Source: Commensalibacter melissae (GTDB lineage Bacteria > Pseudomonadota > Alphaproteobacteria > Acetobacterales > Acetobacteraceae). Taken from it: a DNA stretch of 64,000 nucleotides. Under the pieces are notes generated by a model. It was given only the letters and a program-made list of their open reading frames with translations, searched no databases and was not told where the DNA came from. This document shows positions 23,020 to 34,840 of this stretch, in pieces. Each line of letters begins with the position of its first letter. The stretch's first letter is position 1. A program made the translations under genes and the position numbers. The stretch lies in the NCBI RefSeq assembly GCF_003691365.1, contig NZ_CP033087.1:1440501-1504500 (forward strand). Reading direction: 5' to 3'.

Positions 23020-23745
23020 TCAAAATTGATCTTTTGCCTTACGTAAGCGTGCAAACTCCTCAACGGTCAAGGCCATCAAAAAAGGATTGGTTCTCTTTTC
23101 AATTGCCAGCATGACGGGCAAGGATGGTTTATTTTCCGAACGCAATTGCTGCACTTGCTTCAAACGATTTAACAAATCTTCATTGTTTGAATCCACTGTC
23201 AGGGCAAAACGACCATTATCTTCTGTATATTCATGAGCGGCATAGACCATAATTTCATCAGGCAGGGACTTTATCCGTTTGAAACTTTGAAACATCTGTT
23301 CTGGACTACCTTCGAATAAACGACCACAACCAAGGCTAAATAGAGTATCTCCTGTAAAAATTATACCTAAATCATATGAATAATAACAAACAGATCCCAG
23401 AGTATGACCTGGCGTATTTATAACTTCAAAAAAACCGAAACCCAGGTCGATCTGTTCATGATCCTGTACATAATCCGTAGCATCCACAATACTGTTTCTT
23501 TCTTTAACAGGCGCATATATCTGACAATTAAATTTGTCTTTCAATTGGCGAATGCCCCCTGTATGATCTGAATGATGATGCGTGACAAGTACCGATTGCA
23601 AATTCAGTTTTTTATCTTTTATAGTATTAAAAACGGGAGTAAAATTACCAGGATCGACAATAGCTGCATTTCTGGTTTTTTTATCATATAATAGCCACGC
23701 ATAATTGGTTTCATAAAAAGGAATAGGCTTAATAAGAACAGACAT
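23020..23745 (-). CDS. gloB: Hydroxyacylglutathione hydrolase (glyoxalase II)
   Basis: The 241-residue metallo-beta-lactamase-fold enzyme has the HxHxDH metal motif (THHHSDHTGG, His56-His61), later metal ligands in NTPGHTLGS and FTGDTLFSLGCGRLFEG, and the AAHEYT motif. It hydrolyses S-lactoylglutathione to lactate and glutathione, completing methylglyoxal detoxification. It is divergent from the methyltransferase gene 62 bases away, a pairing also seen in other alphaproteobacteria. Confidence 0.94.
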   Translation of the reverse strand: MSVLIKPIPFYETNYAWLLYDKKTRNAAIVDPGNFTPVFNTIKDKKLNLQSVLVTHHHSDHTGGIRQLKDKFNCQIYAPVKERNSIVDATDYVQDHEQIDLGFGFFEVINTPGHTLGSVCYYSYDLGIIFTGDTLFSLGCGRLFEGSPEQMFQSFKRIKSLPDEIMVYAAHEYTEDNGRFALTVDSNNEDLLNRLKQVQQLRSENKPSLPVMLAIEKRTNPFLMALTVEEFARLRKAKDQF

Positions 23746-24592: not shown

Positions 24593-25270
24593 ATGTCTAT
24601 TTTACATTCAATCCGAACAAATATTAGTAAACCGCACAAAGCTGGATATCCTTTTCTCTGCATCTCTGCTTTGATAAGTTTTATTGGCTATCGCATTCAT
24701 GCTCGGATCGGACATTTAATTGGTCTTATAGGAAGCTTATTTTTTGGGTTTTGCTGGTATTTTTTTCGTAATCCCAAGCGAATTGTCCCCCATAAAAATG
24801 ATATTCTTGTTTCCCCAGCAGATGGAACCGTTTCAGCCATAAACTATATTCCCCCTCCTGTTGATTTAGGTTTGGATGACAAACCGGTCTGGCGCATTTC
24901 TATTTTTCTTTCCATTTTCAACGTCCACTTACAACGCATCCCTGTCGCTGGAAAAATTACCGCACGATCATATATCAAGGGAAAATTTTTTAACGCTTCA
25001 CTGGATAAAGCATCAGAACATAATGAACGCAACGCAATTTGCATAACTTTACTAGATGGAAAAAAGGTGGTTGTTGTTCAGATTGCCGGATTGATTGCCA
25101 GAAGAATTGTATGTAATGCCGATATAAATCAACAATTTAATATGGGTGATATTTATGGGTTGATCCGATTTGGCTCCAGAGTGGATCTTTACCTGCCCGA
25201 TGGGTGTCAACCCTGTGTTGAGGTTGGGCAAACCATGATCGGCGGCGAAACGATTGTTGCAAAATTATAA
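24593..25270 (+). CDS. psd: Phosphatidylserine decarboxylase
   Basis: This 225-residue protein is a short-type Psd proenzyme. It has an N-terminal hydrophobic segment (about 19-58), LVSPADGTV, NVHLQRIPVAG and the autocleavage motif FGSRVD (Gly194-Ser195), where cleavage generates the pyruvoyl prosthetic group on the alpha chain. It converts phosphatidylserine to phosphatidylethanolamine at the inner membrane. The next gene, pssA, makes its substrate and overlaps or abuts the stop. Confidence 0.95.
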   Translation: MSILHSIRTNISKPHKAGYPFLCISALISFIGYRIHARIGHLIGLIGSLFFGFCWYFFRNPKRIVPHKNDILVSPADGTVSAINYIPPPVDLGLDDKPVWRISIFLSIFNVHLQRIPVAGKITARSYIKGKFFNASLDKASEHNERNAICITLLDGKKVVVVQIAGLIARRIVCNADINQQFNMGDIYGLIRFGSRVDLYLPDGCQPCVEVGQTMIGGETIVAKL

Positions 25271-26123
25271 ACGCTCTTTTAACCCAGAACATAAATTAAT
25301 GTTACGACAAAAAATTCGTCCCCGTGTCAAGGGAATTTCCTTTAATCGAATTATTCCAAACTTATTGACAATTCTTGGATTGTGTGCCGGTCTGATCAGT
25401 ATTCGCAGTGCAATTCATGGAAGGTTCAATGAGGCTGTTATCGCCATATTAATTGCTGCCTGTTTTGACGGGTTGGATGGGCGAATTGCCCGTTTATTAC
25501 GTGGTACAAGTCGATTTGGTGCAGAATTGGACAGCCTTGTCGATTTTTTGTCCTTCGGGGTTGCTCCAAGTCTTGTCTTATACTTATGGTCCCTTAAAAA
25601 TGGAGGGGATTATTCTTTTATTCCCTGTGCAATATTTACGGTATGCATGGCTTTACGTCTGGCACGGTTTAATGCCGCACTTGATGATAACAAACCTCAA
25701 TATGCCAGCAATTTTTTTACGGGTGTCCCTGCCCCGGCAGGTGCTGGAATAGTTTTATTTCCTGTTTTTCTTGGCTTGGAAAGCAAGCATTATCAAATTG
25801 ATTTTCTTAATTCCATCGCCCATTCCGAAATCCTGACAATTACAATTTTAGTCATAACATCTTTTTTGCTGATTTCTACCTTACCGATCTGGTCATTCAA
25901 AAATTTTAAAATTCCCACACCTTACGTCATGCCTATATTTTTAAGCACCTGCATCTTCGCAACTATTCTGGTAGCAGATCCTTGGGGAACCTTGGCTTTA
26001 AGCGGGATTTTATATCTGAGTCTAATTCCATTGAGTTATCGCAGTTACCATCGTCTAAAAGCTGATGCCCAGACAATTCTTGTGAAGACGAAAAAGGGGG
26101 AGGACTTTTTGAATAAAAATTAG
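25254..26123 (+). CDS. pssA: CDP-diacylglycerol-serine O-phosphatidyltransferase
   Basis: The complete CDP-alcohol phosphotransferase motif is present: Asp72, Asp75-Gly76, Ala79-Arg80, Gly89, Asp93 and Asp97 in 289 residues, with about eight hydrophobic segments. It makes phosphatidylserine from CDP-diacylglycerol and serine. The TTG at 25254 overlaps psd; an ATG at 25299 would give a protein 15 residues shorter, and neither has a strong ribosome-binding site. Its 3' end overlaps the last 161 bases of the convergent Fe-S subunit gene. Confidence 0.92.
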   Translation: MLQNYKRSFNPEHKLMLRQKIRPRVKGISFNRIIPNLLTILGLCAGLISIRSAIHGRFNEAVIAILIAACFDGLDGRIARLLRGTSRFGAELDSLVDFLSFGVAPSLVLYLWSLKNGGDYSFIPCAIFTVCMALRLARFNAALDDNKPQYASNFFTGVPAPAGAGIVLFPVFLGLESKHYQIDFLNSIAHSEILTITILVITSFLLISTLPIWSFKNFKIPTPYVMPIFLSTCIFATILVADPWGTLALSGILYLSLIPLSYRSYHRLKADAQTILVKTKKGEDFLNKN

Positions 26124-26589
26124 AAGACGTATTCCGTTTCAATTTCATTAAACAATCCATAATTGTGGAAGGTAAAGGCGGACATCCTTCAATTTGCAAA
26201 ATACATTCCTCGTCACCAACATTTTCACCCAAGATCGCATAATTACTTGCAAAAATATGTCGGTTAATTGCACATGATCCAATTGTTACAATCGCTTTTG
26301 ATTTAGAAATCAATTTCCAGCTTTTTTCAATATAAGGAAGCATAGCACGAGTAATCAGCCCTGATATTAACAACAAGTCTGCATCAGCAGGATGTCCAAC
26401 AAATTTTATCCCCGTATCTTTTATATCATATGCGGTCCCGTTTAAGGCCTGCAGTTCAAACGTGCATCCATTACAGTCTCCGCATCCAATATGAAATACA
26501 TGTATATCCTGTTTTTTTTGACCGGCAAATTTTTGAACAGGTTTTATTTTTCCAGTTAATGAATCGATTAACGATTTAATAAAAACCAC
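25963..26589 (-). CDS. Fe-S (NuoB/HyfI-like) subunit of a hydrogenase-4-related complex
   Basis: This 208-residue protein matches the small electron-transfer subunit of complex I and group 4 hydrogenases. Cys39 and Cys42 (GDCNGCTFELQALNG), Cys106 (TIGSCA) and Cys136 (EGCPPLP) can ligate one [4Fe-4S] cluster. The first 150 residues cover the family domain; a polar tail of about 50 residues follows, encoded largely antisense to the pssA 3' end. The GTG start at 26589 follows AAGGA by six bases. It is the last gene of the six-gene membrane complex cluster and should dock on the large subunit in the cytoplasm. Confidence 0.85.
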   Translation of the reverse strand: MVFIKSLIDSLTGKIKPVQKFAGQKKQDIHVFHIGCGDCNGCTFELQALNGTAYDIKDTGIKFVGHPADADLLLISGLITRAMLPYIEKSWKLISKSKAIVTIGSCAINRHIFASNYAILGENVGDEECILQIEGCPPLPSTIMDCLMKLKRNTSSNFYSKSPPPFSSSQELSGHQLLDDGNCDNSMELDSDIKSRLKPRFPKDLLPE

Positions 26590-26600
26590 TAGTTTTCCTT

Positions 26601-28133
26601 TTATAGATCTACGCCTGTTACCAAATGACCAAATGACGCCTTTATCAATACATGATTATCAAAATGTTCATTTTTTAATACATCTTGCAAGACATAGGCC
26701 TGATTGGCACCAGGATCACGTATAAATACGTCTTTTATAACCCCCGCTTCTAGTCTCACATAATACCATAAATCCCCTTGTACCCCTTCACAAACACCAA
26801 CCCCTTCCCCATTTAATTTTTCAATAATAATTTCTTGAGAGGATTTGAACGCTTCCTCATTATTTTCTTCCCTTAGAAGTATATCAATTATATTTAACGA
26901 TGTTTTTATCTCAACAAACCATGCCTGCATACGTGCATCAACATCCCCTTTTGTAAAATTCGGAGGTGGCAGCCATTCCAATCGGTATTCAGACATATAC
27001 CGACGCAAATCCACATCCCGTCCGGAAGCCCGCCCAACAATTCCACCTATATTGAAATCAATCGCTTTTTTTAGAGATAAAATTCCCATATTTTGAAGAT
27101 AGTCACCCAGGCCAGGCAAGGTTATAGCCAAATTAAATGCCTGATCAATCAAATATTTAATTTTTTTAGGAAAATGTCTTTTTTTATCATTTTCTTGCCC
27201 TAAAAAAACAGCACCAGGAAAAACACAATCCATTAACCAGCGATGCCCAAAATAATGTATATTCCAACGCATAAGGAGTTCACGCGCCAGATCACACCGG
27301 CTGGCAACCAACTCTACTTCTAACACGCGAAATAAACGTGTTAAATAAAGCAGATAGGCTGCAATTCTGGATAATTCAGAATATAAGATACGTTTTCTCA
27401 AAACAGGCAAGGAAGGGACAAAATTTGCAATATCTTCAATCGCATGAGAAAAGGCAATCTGATGCGCAACGGAATCAAGTGCGTTAATACGGCTTATTAA
27501 AGGTAATATTTCCAAACTATTTCTATTATACAGATTGGATAGAATTCCTCTATGCGTATATCCGTACACTGATTCAGCTCGGATAATCCGCTCACCCATA
27601 TTAAGAAAACGCCACAGCACAGGCAATTTTTCTGTCGCATTGGAGGGATCAATAACCGTTATCTCCCCTCCATTATTCAGTAAATGAGAGACAGATGGAT
27701 TTTCTTGTCTTTCTGGAGGCCATAAGACAGGCCCTGGTTTTTCTGACAATGGCCAGCAATTATTCCATAAACCCCGATCCAACCACGGGCGTAAATCAAC
27801 AGCATTCATTGCTTCCTTACCCCATAACTCCCAGATCATTCTTTCATATATAATGGCAGCGGGTCTTACAGAAGACAAGGCCAGATAACGGTTCATTGAT
27901 GCGGAAATACGAACGCCAATGGGCTTGTATCCATTCTCAAGAAATAAGACAAAAACAGTATCCTCCTTACACCACATTGTTAGGAACATAAGCCGATCAG
28001 TTTTTAATGCCGCAAGCATCTCCGCCCATTCTTGTTCATCAAGAGAAACGAAAAACCTACTATCTGTTTGATGGCTTTTAAGACAATCTATTAATTTTAG
28101 GGAACGCTGAACAAATGTTTTTTTTTCAACCAT
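26601..28133 (-). CDS. Large subunit (NuoC-NuoD/HyfG-like) without nickel ligands
   Basis: The 510-residue protein fuses a NuoC-like N-terminal domain (about 1-120) to a NuoD/hydrogenase large-subunit domain, the HycE/HyfG architecture. In group 4 hydrogenases two CxxC pairs hold the NiFe centre. Here the first pair reads RINALDSVAH, with Asn217 and Asp220 instead of cysteines, and the C-terminal DPCxxC reads DPGANQ, with Gly475 and Gln478. It therefore cannot hold a canonical NiFe site. No C-terminal protease-cleavage pattern is seen. It most resembles the 'Ehr' (energy-converting-hydrogenase-related) complexes described for bacteria and archaea. Function is unknown; electron transfer coupled to ion movement is the family theme. 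Confidence 0.83.
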   Translation of the reverse strand: MVEKKTFVQRSLKLIDCLKSHQTDSRFFVSLDEQEWAEMLAALKTDRLMFLTMWCKEDTVFVLFLENGYKPIGVRISASMNRYLALSSVRPAAIIYERMIWELWGKEAMNAVDLRPWLDRGLWNNCWPLSEKPGPVLWPPERQENPSVSHLLNNGGEITVIDPSNATEKLPVLWRFLNMGERIIRAESVYGYTHRGILSNLYNRNSLEILPLISRINALDSVAHQIAFSHAIEDIANFVPSLPVLRKRILYSELSRIAAYLLYLTRLFRVLEVELVASRCDLARELLMRWNIHYFGHRWLMDCVFPGAVFLGQENDKKRHFPKKIKYLIDQAFNLAITLPGLGDYLQNMGILSLKKAIDFNIGGIVGRASGRDVDLRRYMSEYRLEWLPPPNFTKGDVDARMQAWFVEIKTSLNIIDILLREENNEEAFKSSQEIIIEKLNGEGVGVCEGVQGDLWYYVRLEAGVIKDVFIRDPGANQAYVLQDVLKNEHFDNHVLIKASFGHLVTGVDL

Positions 28134-28146
28134 TTTTCAGAAACAA

Positions 28147-29460
28147 TCACTTTTGTATAAACTGCATTGCAATTTGAAATAGCCAATATTTGGCAATGAT
28201 AGGAATAACCAAAGAGGGTAAAAAAATCAGGCTCAATAAACATCCACCCTCTTTTGTAAAAATATTTCGAGAAAATAATTGAATATTATTTTTTTTAAAC
28301 AGAAAAAAGCCTCTTACAAAAAACAATAAAAACAAGCATGATCCCAACCAGGGAAACTGTGCAAACAAACTCGCAATCAAAATGGCACATGCAAAAAATA
28401 TGCCAAATGGCGGAAATGCAGATATGGCAATGATAAACCAACCTCTAGAATCCACAGCAAAAGGACTTTTTCGAAGAATATACCCTAACGGTGCATAAAT
28501 AACCAGAACAGTTATGAAAAGGCAAAAACCATATAAACCCTGAAATCCATTGGAAAAAACACCAGCCAATGCTGCCAAAATAGTGATCAAAAACGGGGAA
28601 TACAAAAAAGGATCATCATTTTCTTTTATAAGAATAATAATGAAACTGATCAACCCTAATATCATGAGAAATGATTGAGGGTTTTGATAAGATGAGATTT
28701 GAAATAATCTTATGAATAAGGAGAGAAAAGCAACTGGGATGATAAAAAAGACAATACTGCCAATTAAAGTGGGCAAATGATTGACAAAACGTAGAAAAGT
28801 AATGAATACGGGAAACAACCCGATCATTTGAACAATACTAAACGCCAGGATAAAACTGCCAAAACGGGGTAACAAGGGATAGGTTTGTCCAACAGATAAC
28901 TCAAGAATGAAAACACCCATCAAAGCCATTATCATAAAAAAAAGCATATAGCGGAAGTATTCCCAGGCCGCCTGTATCTGTTCTCCCCCACCATGAATAA
29001 AACAAGCCAAAAAAGACAGGAAAATCATGCTATGCAAACAAATCTGCGCTATAAAAAAATTATTAATAGCTACAGCCATCATGGCGGTACAGATAATTAA
29101 TTGATAGAGGCCGAGACTATAGGATAATTTTTTTTGCTTTCCAGATGAACTTAATTGGCCAGGAACCATGAATTTCAAAACTATTGATGCAATAATGCTA
29201 CCTATAGCGATCATAACCCTTAAAAAACTTGTTAACTCGTCATGTTTCCAAATAACGGAAAGATAAAAATCATCATGAATAAATGCCGATGCAACCGTAA
29301 TAAAAAAAAGGATTATTGTTACAATAAAATGACATCGGATTTTTGCACGCTGATGATGACAGGCATAAATTCCTATGATTCCTGCCACGGGCCAGAGAAC
29401 ACAACTCCAATACAAAATTTTTGCTAAATCACCATTTCCGAACACAGTCAACCTGTCCAA
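28147..29460 (-). CDS. NuoN/HyfF-like membrane subunit
   Basis: This 437-residue protein is almost wholly hydrophobic, with about 13-14 likely membrane segments, and lies where HyfF (an antiporter-type subunit related to NuoL/M/N) sits in hyf operons. Family resemblance is weak: the usual motif around transmembrane helices 7-8 with PSPVSALL is replaced by HLPTLIGSIVFF. The TTG at 29460 overlaps the preceding gene by 32 bases; a GTG at 29445 is another possible start. It probably anchors the complex in the inner membrane; a working ion channel is not assured. Confidence 0.7.
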   Translation of the reverse strand: MDRLTVFGNGDLAKILYWSCVLWPVAGIIGIYACHHQRAKIRCHFIVTIILFFITVASAFIHDDFYLSVIWKHDELTSFLRVMIAIGSIIASIVLKFMVPGQLSSSGKQKKLSYSLGLYQLIICTAMMAVAINNFFIAQICLHSMIFLSFLACFIHGGGEQIQAAWEYFRYMLFFMIMALMGVFILELSVGQTYPLLPRFGSFILAFSIVQMIGLFPVFITFLRFVNHLPTLIGSIVFFIIPVAFLSLFIRLFQISSYQNPQSFLMILGLISFIIILIKENDDPFLYSPFLITILAALAGVFSNGFQGLYGFCLFITVLVIYAPLGYILRKSPFAVDSRGWFIIAISAFPPFGIFFACAILIASLFAQFPWLGSCLFLLFFVRGFFLFKKNNIQLFSRNIFTKEGGCLLSLIFLPSLVIPIIAKYWLFQIAMQFIQK

Positions 29461-29980
29461 AACGTTGCATGATAAAAATAGAAGCTAGCAAAAACACAAC
29501 ATAAAAAGCAAAAAGAGTAAAAAATGCATAGAATTGACTATTCAATCCCACGACAAGGGTTAAAGCATTCAATACACATAGCATACCAGCAATTTGTCCT
29601 CCGATTGCTTGACTGCTCATGCTATAAAATACCCCAACCAAAATTATAGATAAAACTATTCCATATTCCAAGCGGAACAATGAAGGCGGCAATACATGGA
29701 CAACAAGGGAAACAGCAAGAATGGTCAAGAATAATCCTGTAAATAAGGTTTTCAAAGTATGCTGGAAATATTGTCCTTTCAAAATGACCGTAAAAAAAAT
29801 TGTCGCAGTGAAAAGCATAAAAAAACTCAATAACGTAATTTTACTGTTAAGTGCATTCTGCCAACCAGATAAAAGACAGCATCCCGTCAGTATAGAATGA
29901 ATAACTGCCTGTAACGAAGACGAGGAAATACCGCTTATCGTAATCAGTAATAGCAGACTCATAAAAAAGGCAAATACCAT
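29429..29980 (-). CDS. HyfE/NuoK-like membrane subunit
   Basis: The protein (183 residues from the ATG at 29980) has about six membrane segments. The segment GIVLSIILVGVFYSMSSQ followed by GGQIAGMLCVLNALTL aligns by eye with the NuoK-like half of HyfE, where the family usually has ENG; the glutamate is replaced (LNA). The ATG begins one base after the hyfC-like stop, preceded by GGCGGA; an upstream in-frame ATG at 30025 is possible. It belongs to the six-gene complex cluster. Confidence 0.72.
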   Translation of the reverse strand: MVFAFFMSLLLLITISGISSSSLQAVIHSILTGCCLLSGWQNALNSKITLLSFFMLFTATIFFTVILKGQYFQHTLKTLFTGLFLTILAVSLVVHVLPPSLFRLEYGIVLSIILVGVFYSMSSQAIGGQIAGMLCVLNALTLVVGLNSQFYAFFTLFAFYVVFLLASIFIMQRFGQVDCVRKW

Positions 29981-29981
29981 T

Positions 29982-30932
29982 CTATATTCCGCCCAAACCC
30001 GCAAAATAAATGACAACGGCCACAAAATTCAATACTGTTGCAATACCAATTTTGTAATAATCCTTGGACAAAAATAAAAAATTTCTCATTATAGAAATTA
30101 CAAGACATTCTATGACAATTTTACCACTCCATGCCAATAATCCAAAAAAAGCGGTTAACAACCAATATATCAAGGATTTTGTCTGTAAATCAAAGATGGC
30201 AATACTCTGAGGCCATATTAAAAACGCAATCAGGGATAACCAGATCAGAAACTGGAGACTAGAAATATAAAACAAGATTGCCTTCTCGTCTCCATCAAAC
30301 CCATCTTTCTCAATAAAATTCACAAAGTCCGGTATATCTAGAACAAGAAAAAATAGAGAACATGCACATATAAAAAGAGGACATAGAGCCAAATTTATCA
30401 AACTTGTGGAATTATGAAAAAAAAGGACAATATGCGAAAGCTCTGTACTTTTTGTATTTAAATGGCAAACCATAGCGATCAGTAAAATTGCAGGAATATA
30501 CATGAAGGTTTGGAACATAATCCGCTGCGATTTTTTGAAACATAACAGTGAGCAATCTTGAAAAACAAGAAAAAATATCAAAAAAGGCACAAATATTAAC
30601 AATATCGTAACAAAGATAAAATCGGAATTATTGTTAACCAGGATATTTGTTGAAAATATCGGAATAGATATTGCCACAGTTACTAATAATCCAATAATTA
30701 TTAAATAAATCAGGGTATTGACAGACAATATTTTTTTAAAAAGAAAATTTAAAATTCGTGAATATATAATTTTGATGTTTTGTAATACATATTGGAATGA
30801 TTCCAAAGGTTTTCCCTGAATTTTTCCATTCAACCTTTCCATAAACACCATAATTAAAGGTGCCATACCTAAAATCAATAATACATGAAATAGGATCATT
30901 AATAGGGACATCAACCAATACAGAAATATCAT
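29982..30932 (-). CDS. NuoH/HyfC-like membrane subunit
   Basis: This 316-residue membrane protein has about eight hydrophobic segments. Two features match the NuoH/HycD/HyfC family that connects the soluble arm to the membrane arm: an early basic loop after the first helix (MERLNGKIQGKPLESFQYVL) and an acidic loop with EKDGFDGDEKAILFY, which corresponds to the E-x-SG-x-x-A segment. Overall conservation is low. The ATG overlaps the stop of the preceding gene (ATGA), so the two are translationally coupled. Confidence 0.74.
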   Translation of the reverse strand: MIFLYWLMSLLMILFHVLLILGMAPLIMVFMERLNGKIQGKPLESFQYVLQNIKIIYSRILNFLFKKILSVNTLIYLIIIGLLVTVAISIPIFSTNILVNNNSDFIFVTILLIFVPFLIFFLVFQDCSLLCFKKSQRIMFQTFMYIPAILLIAMVCHLNTKSTELSHIVLFFHNSTSLINLALCPLFICACSLFFLVLDIPDFVNFIEKDGFDGDEKAILFYISSLQFLIWLSLIAFLIWPQSIAIFDLQTKSLIYWLLTAFFGLLAWSGKIVIECLVISIMRNFLFLSKDYYKIGIATVLNFVAVVIYFAGLGGI

Positions 30933-32815
30933 CTAGCAAAAAATCCTATTAATAACAAAGAGATAATAATTATAGATATAAAGACTTTCTGCTCATTTTC
31001 CCAAATCAATAAATTAAAATAATTTCTATAATTAGAAAAGCAACGATAAAATTTTACACTTTCTACATATCCTTTACGTTTTATAACCAAATATTTTTTA
31101 AAAAGTAAAATATCAGCCAATGTATAGATGAATGTTTTTTCACCAAAACCAAAACTGGTTTTATCAACATGACCCTCATAGACACCCTGTTCTAAAACAA
31201 CATATTTTTTTGTTTGATTTATCAACGCTTTAAATTTAATTTTCTCTTTCACAAGATAAAATAAACCCGCCAAGATTAATAAATATATCATTGGAAAAAC
31301 AGGGACAAACGAAAATTGCAATTCATCATTTTTGAATGCAAACCAGTATAATTTTTCCGTGTGAATTAGATTTTTTTTTATTGGATAGATTAGAAACGAT
31401 ATTATTCCCGGGCAAAAGGACAAAAGAAATAGACCGGATAAATAAATCCTGATCCCTTTTCCGTTTTTTTGTAAAAAATTAAATGATAATTTTGACGATA
31501 GATTAAATTGATGCCGATTTTTTTTATAAAGATTTATAAGTAAATTAATCCAACCCAGAACCAAAAAAATAAAAATAACAGAATTACATCCTATAAAAAA
31601 TAATGCAAATATCATATTAAATAAATAATGACTGAATATGACATTCATGCCTAGTTGCAAATTCCCCCATAACAGCGTAAATCCGGGAAATGGAGGAAAA
31701 CCAGATAACAACAGTGCGAGGCAAAAAAAGGTACAAATTGAAAGTGCCGTATTGATTTGTCTTTTCAAAAAAGATGTTAATAGAAAAGCCAGTGCAAATC
31801 CTAAATTCTGAATTAGTAATCCAAAGAAAAGAAAATCATACGTCAAAGACAGTATGGCTAATTTTTGAAAATGAATTGAAAATAAAAGGATGCAAACAAG
31901 CTCAAGCCATAATGCATTGTTCAAAGAATATAAATATCGTAACCGATCGTATACAGTTACACTTTTTAAACTGGACCAACCCAAACGCAATGCGGATGTT
32001 AAGCCTAGAAATCCAGTAAATAAAATCAAGATAAGGGAAAATTTGTAATCATTAACACTGATGATAAATCTTAATAATGCATAAAATCCAATCATGCTTT
32101 TTAAACAAATCAAATAGAAAGAAATATCACCAATTCTATTAAGTTTCTCATCAGATTTTTCGTTATGAAAAAAATCAAATAATCCAAGCAGAAAACATAT
32201 AGGCAAAAGTGATAAAAAAAACAGACAATCTATATTATTGGATTGCATAATCCTAGAAAAATCAATATCTCTTGGACTAAACTGGTTATCACTCATAACA
32301 GGTAAAAAACTCATGACCCCCAACAAACATGCAAAAGCAATCCAATAAACCAAATTTTTCTTCTGATCTGCCTGATAAATAATCAATAAAACCAATGATA
32401 AAAGAAAAATCAGAAAAAAGAAATTTCCTGCAACAAAAAAGGATATGGCGATAATATTTAAAAAGAGAAAATAACAATTTTTAGACAACAACGGTTGATA
32501 ATATAAGAATAAAAAGGCAGTCGTAAACAACAACAAAAGGAAAAAACAAGATAGCCCATCTAAATAGAAACTGATTTTATATACGTCACTTAGAATAAAA
32601 GGATAAAATGATAATGGATCAGAATGAAATACCAGTGCAAGAAAGGCAAGAAAAGCCCCAGTGATAGATCCATAAAGTGGAAAACTAAAAAATAACTTAG
32701 GAAAGTAATATCTTTCAGATTTTATAAACCCAACGTTAACAAGATAGAGCATACTTGTTTGATAAAACAATAAAACGATTCCTAATATGATCAAACACAA
32801 AATTAATGTTGACAG
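30929..32815 (-). CDS. HyfB/NuoL-like antiporter-type membrane subunit, uncertain start
   Basis: About 628 residues with roughly 15 membrane segments, in the position of HyfB, the antiporter-like subunit. A lysine remains in CLKSMIGFYALLR (helix 7 region) and in LGWSSLKSV, but the usual WE of helix 5 is missing (FFLIFLLSLVLLIIYQ) and the AHPxAPSPVSALM segment is lost. A TTG at 32800 has no nearby ribosome-binding site; a CTG at 32815 lies seven bases after AGGGG, so translation may begin there. It is the first gene of the complex cluster, about 80 bases after holC, and is especially AT-rich. Confidence 0.68.
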   Translation of the reverse strand: MSTLILCLIILGIVLLFYQTSMLYLVNVGFIKSERYYFPKLFFSFPLYGSITGAFLAFLALVFHSDPLSFYPFILSDVYKISFYLDGLSCFFLLLLFTTAFLFLYYQPLLSKNCYFLFLNIIAISFFVAGNFFFLIFLLSLVLLIIYQADQKKNLVYWIAFACLLGVMSFLPVMSDNQFSPRDIDFSRIMQSNNIDCLFFLSLLPICFLLGLFDFFHNEKSDEKLNRIGDISFYLICLKSMIGFYALLRFIISVNDYKFSLILILFTGFLGLTSALRLGWSSLKSVTVYDRLRYLYSLNNALWLELVCILLFSIHFQKLAILSLTYDFLFFGLLIQNLGFALAFLLTSFLKRQINTALSICTFFCLALLLSGFPPFPGFTLLWGNLQLGMNVIFSHYLFNMIFALFFIGCNSVIFIFLVLGWINLLINLYKKNRHQFNLSSKLSFNFLQKNGKGIRIYLSGLFLLSFCPGIISFLIYPIKKNLIHTEKLYWFAFKNDELQFSFVPVFPMIYLLILAGLFYLVKEKIKFKALINQTKKYVVLEQGVYEGHVDKTSFGFGEKTFIYTLADILLFKKYLVIKRKGYVESVKFYRCFSNYRNYFNLLIWENEQKVFISIIIISLLLIGFFAR

Positions 32816-32896: not shown

Positions 32897-33352
32897 TCAA
32901 CCTTTTTCCCACCCTTTTTCTGTTTGTTTCCAATAAGTCAAATCATGCCCAGCCTTTTTCAGTTTACGCCACCGTTCACGAGCCGCCAATACAAACTGTT
33001 CCTCTTTTCCATCAAATAAATCGAACACCCGTTCAAATTGACTGATATCATTGACTGATTGACCATGAACAACAAACAGATAGGCTGCCAGGTTTGGATT
33101 TTCCTCAAAAGTCGTCAACCAAATTGGTTGCCATTCAGGATATTCATCCCGATATTCTTTTGCATGACAACCATGTGGTAACCAAATAGGGTCTATAATA
33201 TTCCATAAAATCTCTGTCAGTTTTTTCAACTGTTCATCATCCTTGCATAGAACAATCCCTTTTTGTTTTTGTTGTCTTGTGCGTATCAGCAAAGAGGGAA
33301 GCGCCTGCTCCATACTTGTTCGGGTCAAATGATAAAAACCAACAGAGGTCAT
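32897..33352 (-). CDS. holC: DNA polymerase III chi subunit
   Basis: The 151-residue protein starts VGFYHLTRTSMEQALPSLL and keeps PIWLTTFEENPN and the acidic/aromatic segment FERVFDLFDG of HolC. Chi links the clamp loader to single-stranded DNA-binding protein in the replisome. It follows pepA by nine bases, the pepA-holC order known from E. coli and other proteobacteria. The hyf-like cluster continues on the same strand. Confidence 0.93.
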   Translation of the reverse strand: MTSVGFYHLTRTSMEQALPSLLIRTRQQKQKGIVLCKDDEQLKKLTEILWNIIDPIWLPHGCHAKEYRDEYPEWQPIWLTTFEENPNLAAYLFVVHGQSVNDISQFERVFDLFDGKEEQFVLAARERWRKLKKAGHDLTYWKQTEKGWEKG

Positions 33353-33361
33353 CGAATTCCC

Positions 33362-34840
33362 TTATTTTTCGTAATAAGTTTCAACAAAATGGTTTAACAG
33401 ATTTACACCGAAAGCTGTCGCCCCTTTTGGACCGCAATAATTGGGTTTTGCCGTGTAGGCTGTTCCGGCGATATCCAAATGAGCCCATGGAGTATCATTA
33501 ACGAATCGTTTTAAAAATTGTGCGGCGGTAATGGATCCTCCATCACGCCCACCAATATTTTTCATATCCGCAAAGTCAGAATTGATCGCTTTATCATAAG
33601 CATCGCCCATTGGCATACGCCATAATTTTTCTCCGGAATCATGACCGGTTGTCGACAATTTACCTGCCAGTTCATCATCATTTGAAAAAAGACCGGCATA
33701 TTCATATCCAAGTGCAACAACCATGGCTCCGGTTAATGTTGCAAGATTGACCATGAAACGCGGTTTGAAACGATCCTGCGTATACCAAAGTAAATCTGCC
33801 AGTACCAATCGTCCCTCTGCATCCGTGTTCAAAACCTCGATTGTCTGTCCAGAGGCACTGCGAACTATATCTCCGGGGCGTTGCGCATGACCAGATACCA
33901 TGTTTTCAACCAAACCTACAACACCAATGACATTCACCTTGGCTTTACGCTTGGCCAGAACAGACATCAATCCTGTTACAGTCGCGGCGCCAGCCATATC
34001 CATTTTCATGTCTTCCATGCCATTCGCTGGTTTTAAGGAAATCCCTCCGGAATCGAAAGTGACACCCTTTCCAAGAAAGGCGAGAGGCGGATCTTTATCA
34101 TCAGGATTTCCATTCCATTGCATTACAACCGTATAAGGTTCGTTATTACTACCTTGAGCCACACCCAGAAGGGCACCAAAACCTAATTCTTGCATTTTCT
34201 CTTTATTGATAACTTCAACCATAAGGCCCAATGATTCAAGCTTTTTGATACGATTTACAAATTCGGCAGGGTTTAACTGATTAGCGGGTTCATTAACAAG
34301 ATCCCTGGTCAAATAGACCCCGTCAGCCACCGCAGACAAGTCAGTCCATTGTTTTTGCGCCCCTTCATAGTCAGAAGCCATAATTTTTATCGCTTTTAAT
34401 TGCCTGAATTCATCTTTTTTACTTTTATCAAGGCAATATTTTTTAAATTCATAATTTTTCAAAACGGCGCCTAGAACAAGATACCCCGCATATTCCGTGA
34501 AATCCCAATCCGCCATAATATGAAAAGATTCCACTTTCCTTTGCAAGGCCTGAAGCGCAATTCCACCTGCTTCTTTGGCTTTACTGACGGAAAACTTATC
34601 CTTCATTCCCAGACCAACGACCAAGATATAATCATGATTTTCATCAGGAGAAACAAGTTTGCAAACCTGTCCAAACTTACCCGTGTAATTATCTGCCTTC
34701 ATCGCCCGATCCAGGGCATTATGAATAATCTTATTAATAACCTTTACAGAATCACCACCCTCATCATTCTCAAACGAGAATAACACAATATTACCTTTTT
34801 CTGGTTTATGCAGGTTCGTAAACTGAATATCGAGTGTCAC
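33362..34840 (-). CDS. pepA: Leucyl aminopeptidase (M17)
   Basis: The 492-residue protein has an N-terminal macro-like domain and a C-terminal catalytic domain with FLGKGVTFDSGGISLKP and NTDAEGRLVLAD, which supply the two-metal site and the catalytic lysine and arginine. It removes N-terminal residues from peptides in the cytoplasm. The start is a GTG at 34840 preceded by AGGGGAG. It is divergent from cysQ and heads the unit pepA-holC, perhaps continuing into the membrane complex genes. Confidence 0.96.
   Translation of the reverse strand: MTLDIQFTNLHKPEKGNIVLFSFENDEGGDSVKVINKIIHNALDRAMKADNYTGKFGQVCKLVSPDENHDYILVVGLGMKDKFSVSKAKEAGGIALQALQRKVESFHIMADWDFTEYAGYLVLGAVLKNYEFKKYCLDKSKKDEFRQLKAIKIMASDYEGAQKQWTDLSAVADGVYLTRDLVNEPANQLNPAEFVNRIKKLESLGLMVEVINKEKMQELGFGALLGVAQGSNNEPYTVVMQWNGNPDDKDPPLAFLGKGVTFDSGGISLKPANGMEDMKMDMAGAATVTGLMSVLAKRKAKVNVIGVVGLVENMVSGHAQRPGDIVRSASGQTIEVLNTDAEGRLVLADLLWYTQDRFKPRFMVNLATLTGAMVVALGYEYAGLFSNDDELAGKLSTTGHDSGEKLWRMPMGDAYDKAINSDFADMKNIGGRDGGSITAAQFLKRFVNDTPWAHLDIAGTAYTAKPNYCGPKGATAFGVNLLNHFVETYYEK

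Follow-up and report, generated by a model that had tools for sequence, protein, structure and literature searches.

Six closely packed genes on the minus strand of the Commensalibacter melissae genome specify the subunits of a predicted membrane complex related to hydrogenase-4 and respiratory complex I. Commensalibacter is a bee- and insect-gut bacterium, and the genome concerned, from the family Acetobacteraceae, is 2.02 Mb in size. The window, by which we mean the whole 64,000-nucleotide stretch of DNA that was analyzed (contig NZ_CP033087.1, positions 1,440,501 to 1,504,500), carries the operon at 25963-32815. From upstream to downstream, all on the minus strand, the genes encode a HyfB-like antiporter-type membrane subunit (30929-32800 or to 32815, 623-628 amino acids), a HyfC/NuoH-like membrane subunit (29982-30932, 316 amino acids), a HyfE-like membrane subunit (29429-29980, 183 amino acids), a second antiporter-type membrane subunit that is HyfF-like (28147-29460, 437 amino acids), a large subunit of the HyfG/HycE/EhrL type in which the 30-kDa and 49-kDa parts are fused (26601-28133, 510 amino acids), and a NuoB/HyfI-like small subunit of the EhrS type (25963-26589, 208 amino acids, with a GTG start). 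An earlier note on this DNA had described a tightly packed HyfB/C/E/F/G/I-like operon in this order, and our re-reading of the frames, all six of which are open, confirms it. The HyfB-like gene starts at a TTG at 32800 or at an in-frame CTG at 32815 and joins the HyfC-like gene through an ATGA junction; the start of the HyfE-like gene is best placed at the ATG at 29980, one base past the HyfC stop, a start shared with the conspecific genome (locus L036).

Upstream of the operon lie holC (32897-33352, minus strand) and pepA (33362-34840, minus strand), a flank common to most of the residue-less lineage defined below. The context on the other side consists of gloB (23020-23745, minus strand), psd (24593-25270, plus strand) and pssA (25254-26123, plus strand). 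The last of these and the small-subunit gene overlap tail to tail, at the 3' end of the latter, so that the C-terminal tail of the small subunit is encoded antisense to pssA. The overlap amounts to about 160 bases in the window (25963-26123), about 140 in loci L003-L005, and far less in other genera. The HyfB/HyfC part of the operon (window positions 30001-32000) is unusually AT-rich, with 28.9% GC as compared to about 35-38% around it.

Pfam recognizes the small and large subunits alone (Oxidored_q6, 1.3e-19, and Complex1_49kDa, 1.6e-11, respectively) and has no family for the four membrane proteins. Direct family searches of Pfam and NCBIfam gave no match for the window's HyfB-, HyfC- and HyfE-like proteins, and the HyfF-like protein matched NCBIfam hydrogenase 4 subunit F weakly (3.7e-5). 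The membrane genes are identified by gene position and by iterative profiles, which tie them to family members that match hydrogenase-4 subunits B (4e-171) and F (3e-169). Profile searches of the PDB with the Commensalibacter HyfB-like protein gave no match, and with the HyfC-like protein a weak one to subunit 4 of formate hydrogenlyase (7z0s_D, E 0.38). AlphaFold2 models of these two proteins, made from four-row alignments, had pLDDT values of 36 and 45, and the membrane folds are taken from profiles and hydropathy.

The large subunit carries no ligands for a NiFe site. Where hydrogenases have RxCGxCxxxH it reads RINALDSVAH, and where they have DPCxxC it reads DPGANQ; typical family members have ARLSGDSTVAH at the first site, and the RxCGxC cysteines occur in 0 of 82 family large subunits. 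The small subunit keeps four cluster ligands, in GDCNGC (the CxxC pair), GSCA and EGCPP, and the full set of four is present in 71 of the 74 operon-linked small subunits of the family. A family profile (A2) of the large subunit finds its nearest solved relative in HycE of Escherichia coli (7z0s_E, 1.2e-76), and alignment with the genome's own NuoD places Ala at the position of the quinone-site Tyr. No HypD was found in the window's genome or in 11 related genomes. The complex thus lacks the NiFe ligands, ferredoxin subunits and HypD of a hydrogenase-4 or formate hydrogenlyase system; it also departs from complex I, in that the cluster has no NuoEFG or NuoI, the quinone-site Tyr is replaced and the channel residues are gone. 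What is found in one cluster is a NiFe-less large subunit, a four-Cys NuoB-like small subunit, and NuoL-, NuoH- and HyfE-like membrane subunits, and, judged by these sequence features, the window complex is of the energy-converting-hydrogenase-related (Ehr) type. Ion movement by the antiporter-type subunits, a suspected function of Ehr in the literature and no formal criterion for it, would rely on channel residues that are absent in the window. The earlier note had likewise read the complex as Ehr-like, without NiFe ligands and without a hydrogenase maturation gene, and both observations hold.

Ehr complexes themselves are known and functionally uncharacterized. That of Sulfobacillus comprises six syntenic genes without a NiFe motif and is of unknown function (PMC4378227), and others have been described in Geobacter (GSU0739-45; PMC7894505) and comammox Nitrospira (PMC10284858); all share with the window NiFe-less large and small subunits and NuoL-, NuoH- and HyfE-like membrane subunits. 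In the literature, Ehr is regarded as a complex that probably translocates charge and has Mrp-like subunits (PMC6349859), whereas the residues required for this are gone from the lineage of the window. Closer at hand are the intact alphaproteobacterial Ehr loci (L044, L046, L164-L179), in which the six genes recur in unchanged order, likewise without a ferredoxin and with the small-subunit cysteines, but which keep all proton-path residues along with four motifs of the large subunit, GPVHAGxxEPGHFRF, RxSGDSTVAH, DPSWxQWP and KSFNCSYSGxDL. The formate hydrogenlyase/hydrogenase-4 system of E. coli (HycBCDEFG; 7z0s) supplies the large-subunit relative named above, and its HycC is closely related to intact HyfB-like proteins (1e-45); in contrast, the window has no NiFe ligands, HyfA/HycB or HyfH/HycF ferredoxin subunits, or maturation genes. 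Respiratory complex I, encoded elsewhere in the same genome, shares the NuoB-, NuoCD-, NuoH- and NuoL/M/N-like modules, whereas NuoEFG, NuoI, the quinone-site Tyr and the conserved antiporter Lys/Glu residues are all absent from the window's complex. Literature searches found no account of an Ehr lineage without these residues.

The earlier note had called the complex an unusual version on two grounds, a missing ferredoxin arm and eroded membrane subunits. That no ferredoxin gene is present was borne out, as no frame with a CxxCxxCxxxC pattern lies near the operon in L003-L005 and L036-L054, but its absence is no oddity. The same six genes, in the order B-C-E-F-large-small and with no ferredoxin, make up 16 of 16 loci in 15 genomes from other alphaproteobacterial families, and this order without a ferredoxin gene is also kept across the Acetobacteraceae, where the note had proposed to look for co-occurrence. 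We therefore rejected the missing arm as a mark of erosion; it is the normal layout for this Ehr type. An apparent absence of the small subunit in seven loci was rejected as well, the gene being found elsewhere in those genomes: it lies apart from the other five in G149, G008, G085, G192, G037, G001 and G059 (L133-L137, L131, L126). In L052 (G170) and L117 (G118), the large- and small-subunit genes are set apart by several kilobases that hold other frames.

The second ground, the erosion of the membrane subunits, proved to be a loss of conserved proton-path residues that affects all four membrane proteins and a whole lineage. Alignments covered about 80 family operons and the 16 outside loci. 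The key residues of intact HyfB-like proteins, EKHHKHKE, read SLHKMGFL in the window, and those of intact HyfF-like proteins, HEKKHEHKE, read LHEMFHLAC; a few intact members deviate at one to four key positions. Scores for these residues are bimodal, with 38 family loci at 0.8-1.0, 38, including the window, at 0.3 or below, and four intermediate. When an intact member is aligned to solved structures, the positions correspond to the TM5 Glu, TM7 Lys, TM8 Lys, TM11 His/Lys and TM12 Glu of antiporter-type subunits. In the window's HyfB-like protein, the TM5 Glu is replaced by Ser, the TM7 Lys by Leu, the TM8 Lys by Met (codon 32095-32093), the TM11 Lys by Phe and the TM12 Glu by Leu; in its HyfF-like protein, the TM7 Lys is replaced by Met (28827-28825), the TM11 Lys by Ala and the TM12 Glu by Cys. 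Intact HyfC- and HyfE-like proteins carry conserved acidic or charged residues of their own. The window's HyfC-like protein has lost conserved Glu, Asp and Arg and retains D102 and K269 (alignment numbering), and its HyfE-like protein has lost the conserved Glu positions. An alignment-free check agrees: all 38 intact loci have the TM7 motif KxGxxPxHxW, and none of the 38 residue-less loci does.

The loss was also counted over all columns that hold a charged residue or His in at least 90% of intact members and that are clearly kept or lost in the residue-less set. By this measure every conserved column is gone from the membrane subunits (all 17 in B, all 23 in C, all 11 in E and all 14 in F, 65 in total), whereas the large subunit has kept 19 and lost 12. 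The lineage concerned comprises about 37 complexes, the window included, and retains the Fe-S cysteines. The large-subunit motifs GPVHAG, EPGHFRF and KSFNCSYSG of intact Ehr are also gone in it. Because all 16 outside loci are intact, the loss is derived. A literal reading of the membrane arm as charge-stripped was rejected: the number of charged residues in hydrophobic segments, by a crude count, falls slightly (from 6.4 to 5.4 in B and from 3.7 to 3.3 in F), and it is the conserved positions that are lost. The predicted number of TM segments is nearly unchanged.

In a rooted tree of the large subunit, the residue-less rows and the partly eroded L081 and L064 group in a single clade (SH-aLRT 96), which lies inside the intact Ehr of the Acetobacteraceae. 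Another small group, made up of L113, L089, L104 and L096, falls elsewhere in the tree with a support of 99. Two origins of residue loss are favored over one by this topology; a single origin was not formally rejected when topologies were compared on a subset of 45 rows (p-AU 0.08). In six genomes (G062, G076, G083, G099, G127 and G151), an intact copy occurs together with one that is partly or fully residue-less. This distribution suggests that the second of two copies was freed, and that it later became the only one retained by acetic acid bacteria. Most of the core lineage lies between pepA-holC and pssA-psd-gloB, a position held by none of the 38 intact family loci, as judged from those flanks that were fetched. 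Outside the family, a 0.9-Mb alphaproteobacterial genome carries an Ehr locus (L177, G340:C21:11400-17400) whose proton-path residues are largely intact up to the contig edge, and in the same genome no NuoD-type subunit was matched.

The earlier note had judged the genes probably functional and had named dN/dS and disrupting mutations in relatives as checks. The frames are open in all loci sampled, and no such mutation was seen among them. For the six genes, dN/dS was 0.03-0.13 in the pairs L005/L037 and L005/L004 and 0.04-0.10 in L052/L111 and L102/L112; between the window and L003 it was 0.08-0.31, as compared to 0.05-0.12 for housekeeping neighbors, and neighbor genes overall mostly fell at 0.02-0.12. 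Most values lie between 0.04 and 0.3, and the highest over all genes and pairs tested, 0.40, occurred at low divergence. These ratios indicate that selection on the complex is purifying and that the erosion is not simple decay. Evolution is faster in the membrane subunits than in the large one, and fastest in the HyfB-like protein, whose dN/dS is relaxed (0.3 for window/L003 and 0.24 for L049/L054). That relaxation, the long branches, and membrane subunits no longer recognized by family models are what one would expect of a functionless remnant in slow decay. Such a remnant is nonetheless very improbable, as dN/dS is mostly well below 1 and often near that of housekeeping neighbors, and as the six genes, all open, are retained in reduced 2-Mb genomes of many genera, including those that have lost complex I. 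A redox pump dependent on a NuoI/HyfH ferredoxin subunit encoded at another locus of the genome is hardly credible. The window's genome does hold an ordinary NuoI (G000:C1:924806), the kind of partner for which the earlier note had proposed to search, but it is not nearby; it belongs to a complete nuo operon at a distance of about 540 kb. Of 200 family genomes sampled, 15 have no NuoF, and 14 of these still match the Ehr large subunit; among the 12 of the 15 that were checked, none has NuoI and 11 retain Ehr. At least 11 relatives without complex I and NuoI thus retain the complex, and all eight that were looked at in detail, out of these 11, have the residue-less form. We therefore rejected NuoI as a hidden partner.

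Because the proton-path residues are lost and yet selection preserves the complex across the family, a job other than pumping is probable. The explanation that we consider rather more probable than its rivals taken together is a six-subunit Ehr, of a lineage special to the Acetobacteraceae, that would have lost proton conduction and taken another, non-pumping role. As read from the sequence, it has no NiFe site, no ferredoxin arm and no conserved proton path; it retains the core of the large subunit, the topology of the membrane arm and four cysteines for one probable [4Fe-4S] cluster. Its reaction would no longer be coupled to proton pumping, and the membrane arm would act as an anchor. The remaining work would fall to the large and small subunits on the cytoplasmic side, most likely with the single cluster, and for it one-electron transfer, redox sensing and partner-protein docking are candidates. 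Charges that persist at unconserved places in the hydrophobic segments speak against this explanation, and lineage-specific, private proton paths may exist. Together with the nearly unchanged TM number, and with charged positions conserved in single subclades (HyfB E417 and H386 within a 12-row residue-less subclade, for example), these charges would suit an ordinary energy-coupling Ehr in which a cytoplasmic redox reaction drives ion transport through residues relocated in each lineage. We regard this as unlikely: HyfB, HyfC, HyfE and HyfF were hit together; the 36 residue-less HyfB-like proteins share a single conserved charged column, which is basic, and no acidic or His column, as against 34 columns, charged or His, in the large subunit; and in complex I modules single substitutions of the equivalent kind block proton conduction, which is abolished by K235M, E377Q or K385I in Thermus Nqo13/Nqo12 (PMC11496545). 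The main rival is a purely structural role, a non-redox membrane platform for another protein with a structural or dispensable Fe-S cluster, which seems unlikely. It draws on the loss of the large-subunit active-site motifs of intact Ehr and on cluster cysteines lost from complexes whose genes are open, three of four in G100/G157 and one each in G001 and G056; in these three lineages, a redox role is weakened because the cysteines are gone. All four ligands in 71 of 74 small subunits are, however, not what an unused cluster would predict. In the single genus of G100 and G157 (L049, 10074-10701, and L054), the small subunit reads GGGSAC, GDGA and GSPP, and this is probably a complex I-like assembly without any Fe-S cluster; the single losses read GGSGGC in G001 (L131) and GSPP in G056 (L106/L138).

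For the lineage as a whole, acetic acid bacteria and their relatives, the non-pumping reading leads to a broader and more tentative one, to which we give slightly less than even weight: a complex I-type proton pump may have become an ion-inert, conserved membrane complex, its architecture reused for redox sensing or as a protein scaffold, possibly twice. Work on the complex I superfamily has treated its members as pumps, and for Ehr complexes no function is known. By shedding the proton-path residues and keeping all six genes, this natural lineage offers a clean comparison with the intact form, in which features common to both (the cluster, the large-subunit core and assembly) would mark the needs of the second job and features exclusive to the intact form would mark the pumping machinery. 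Tractable acetic acid bacteria make the complex testable, and in some that have no complex I, Ehr is the last complex I relative.
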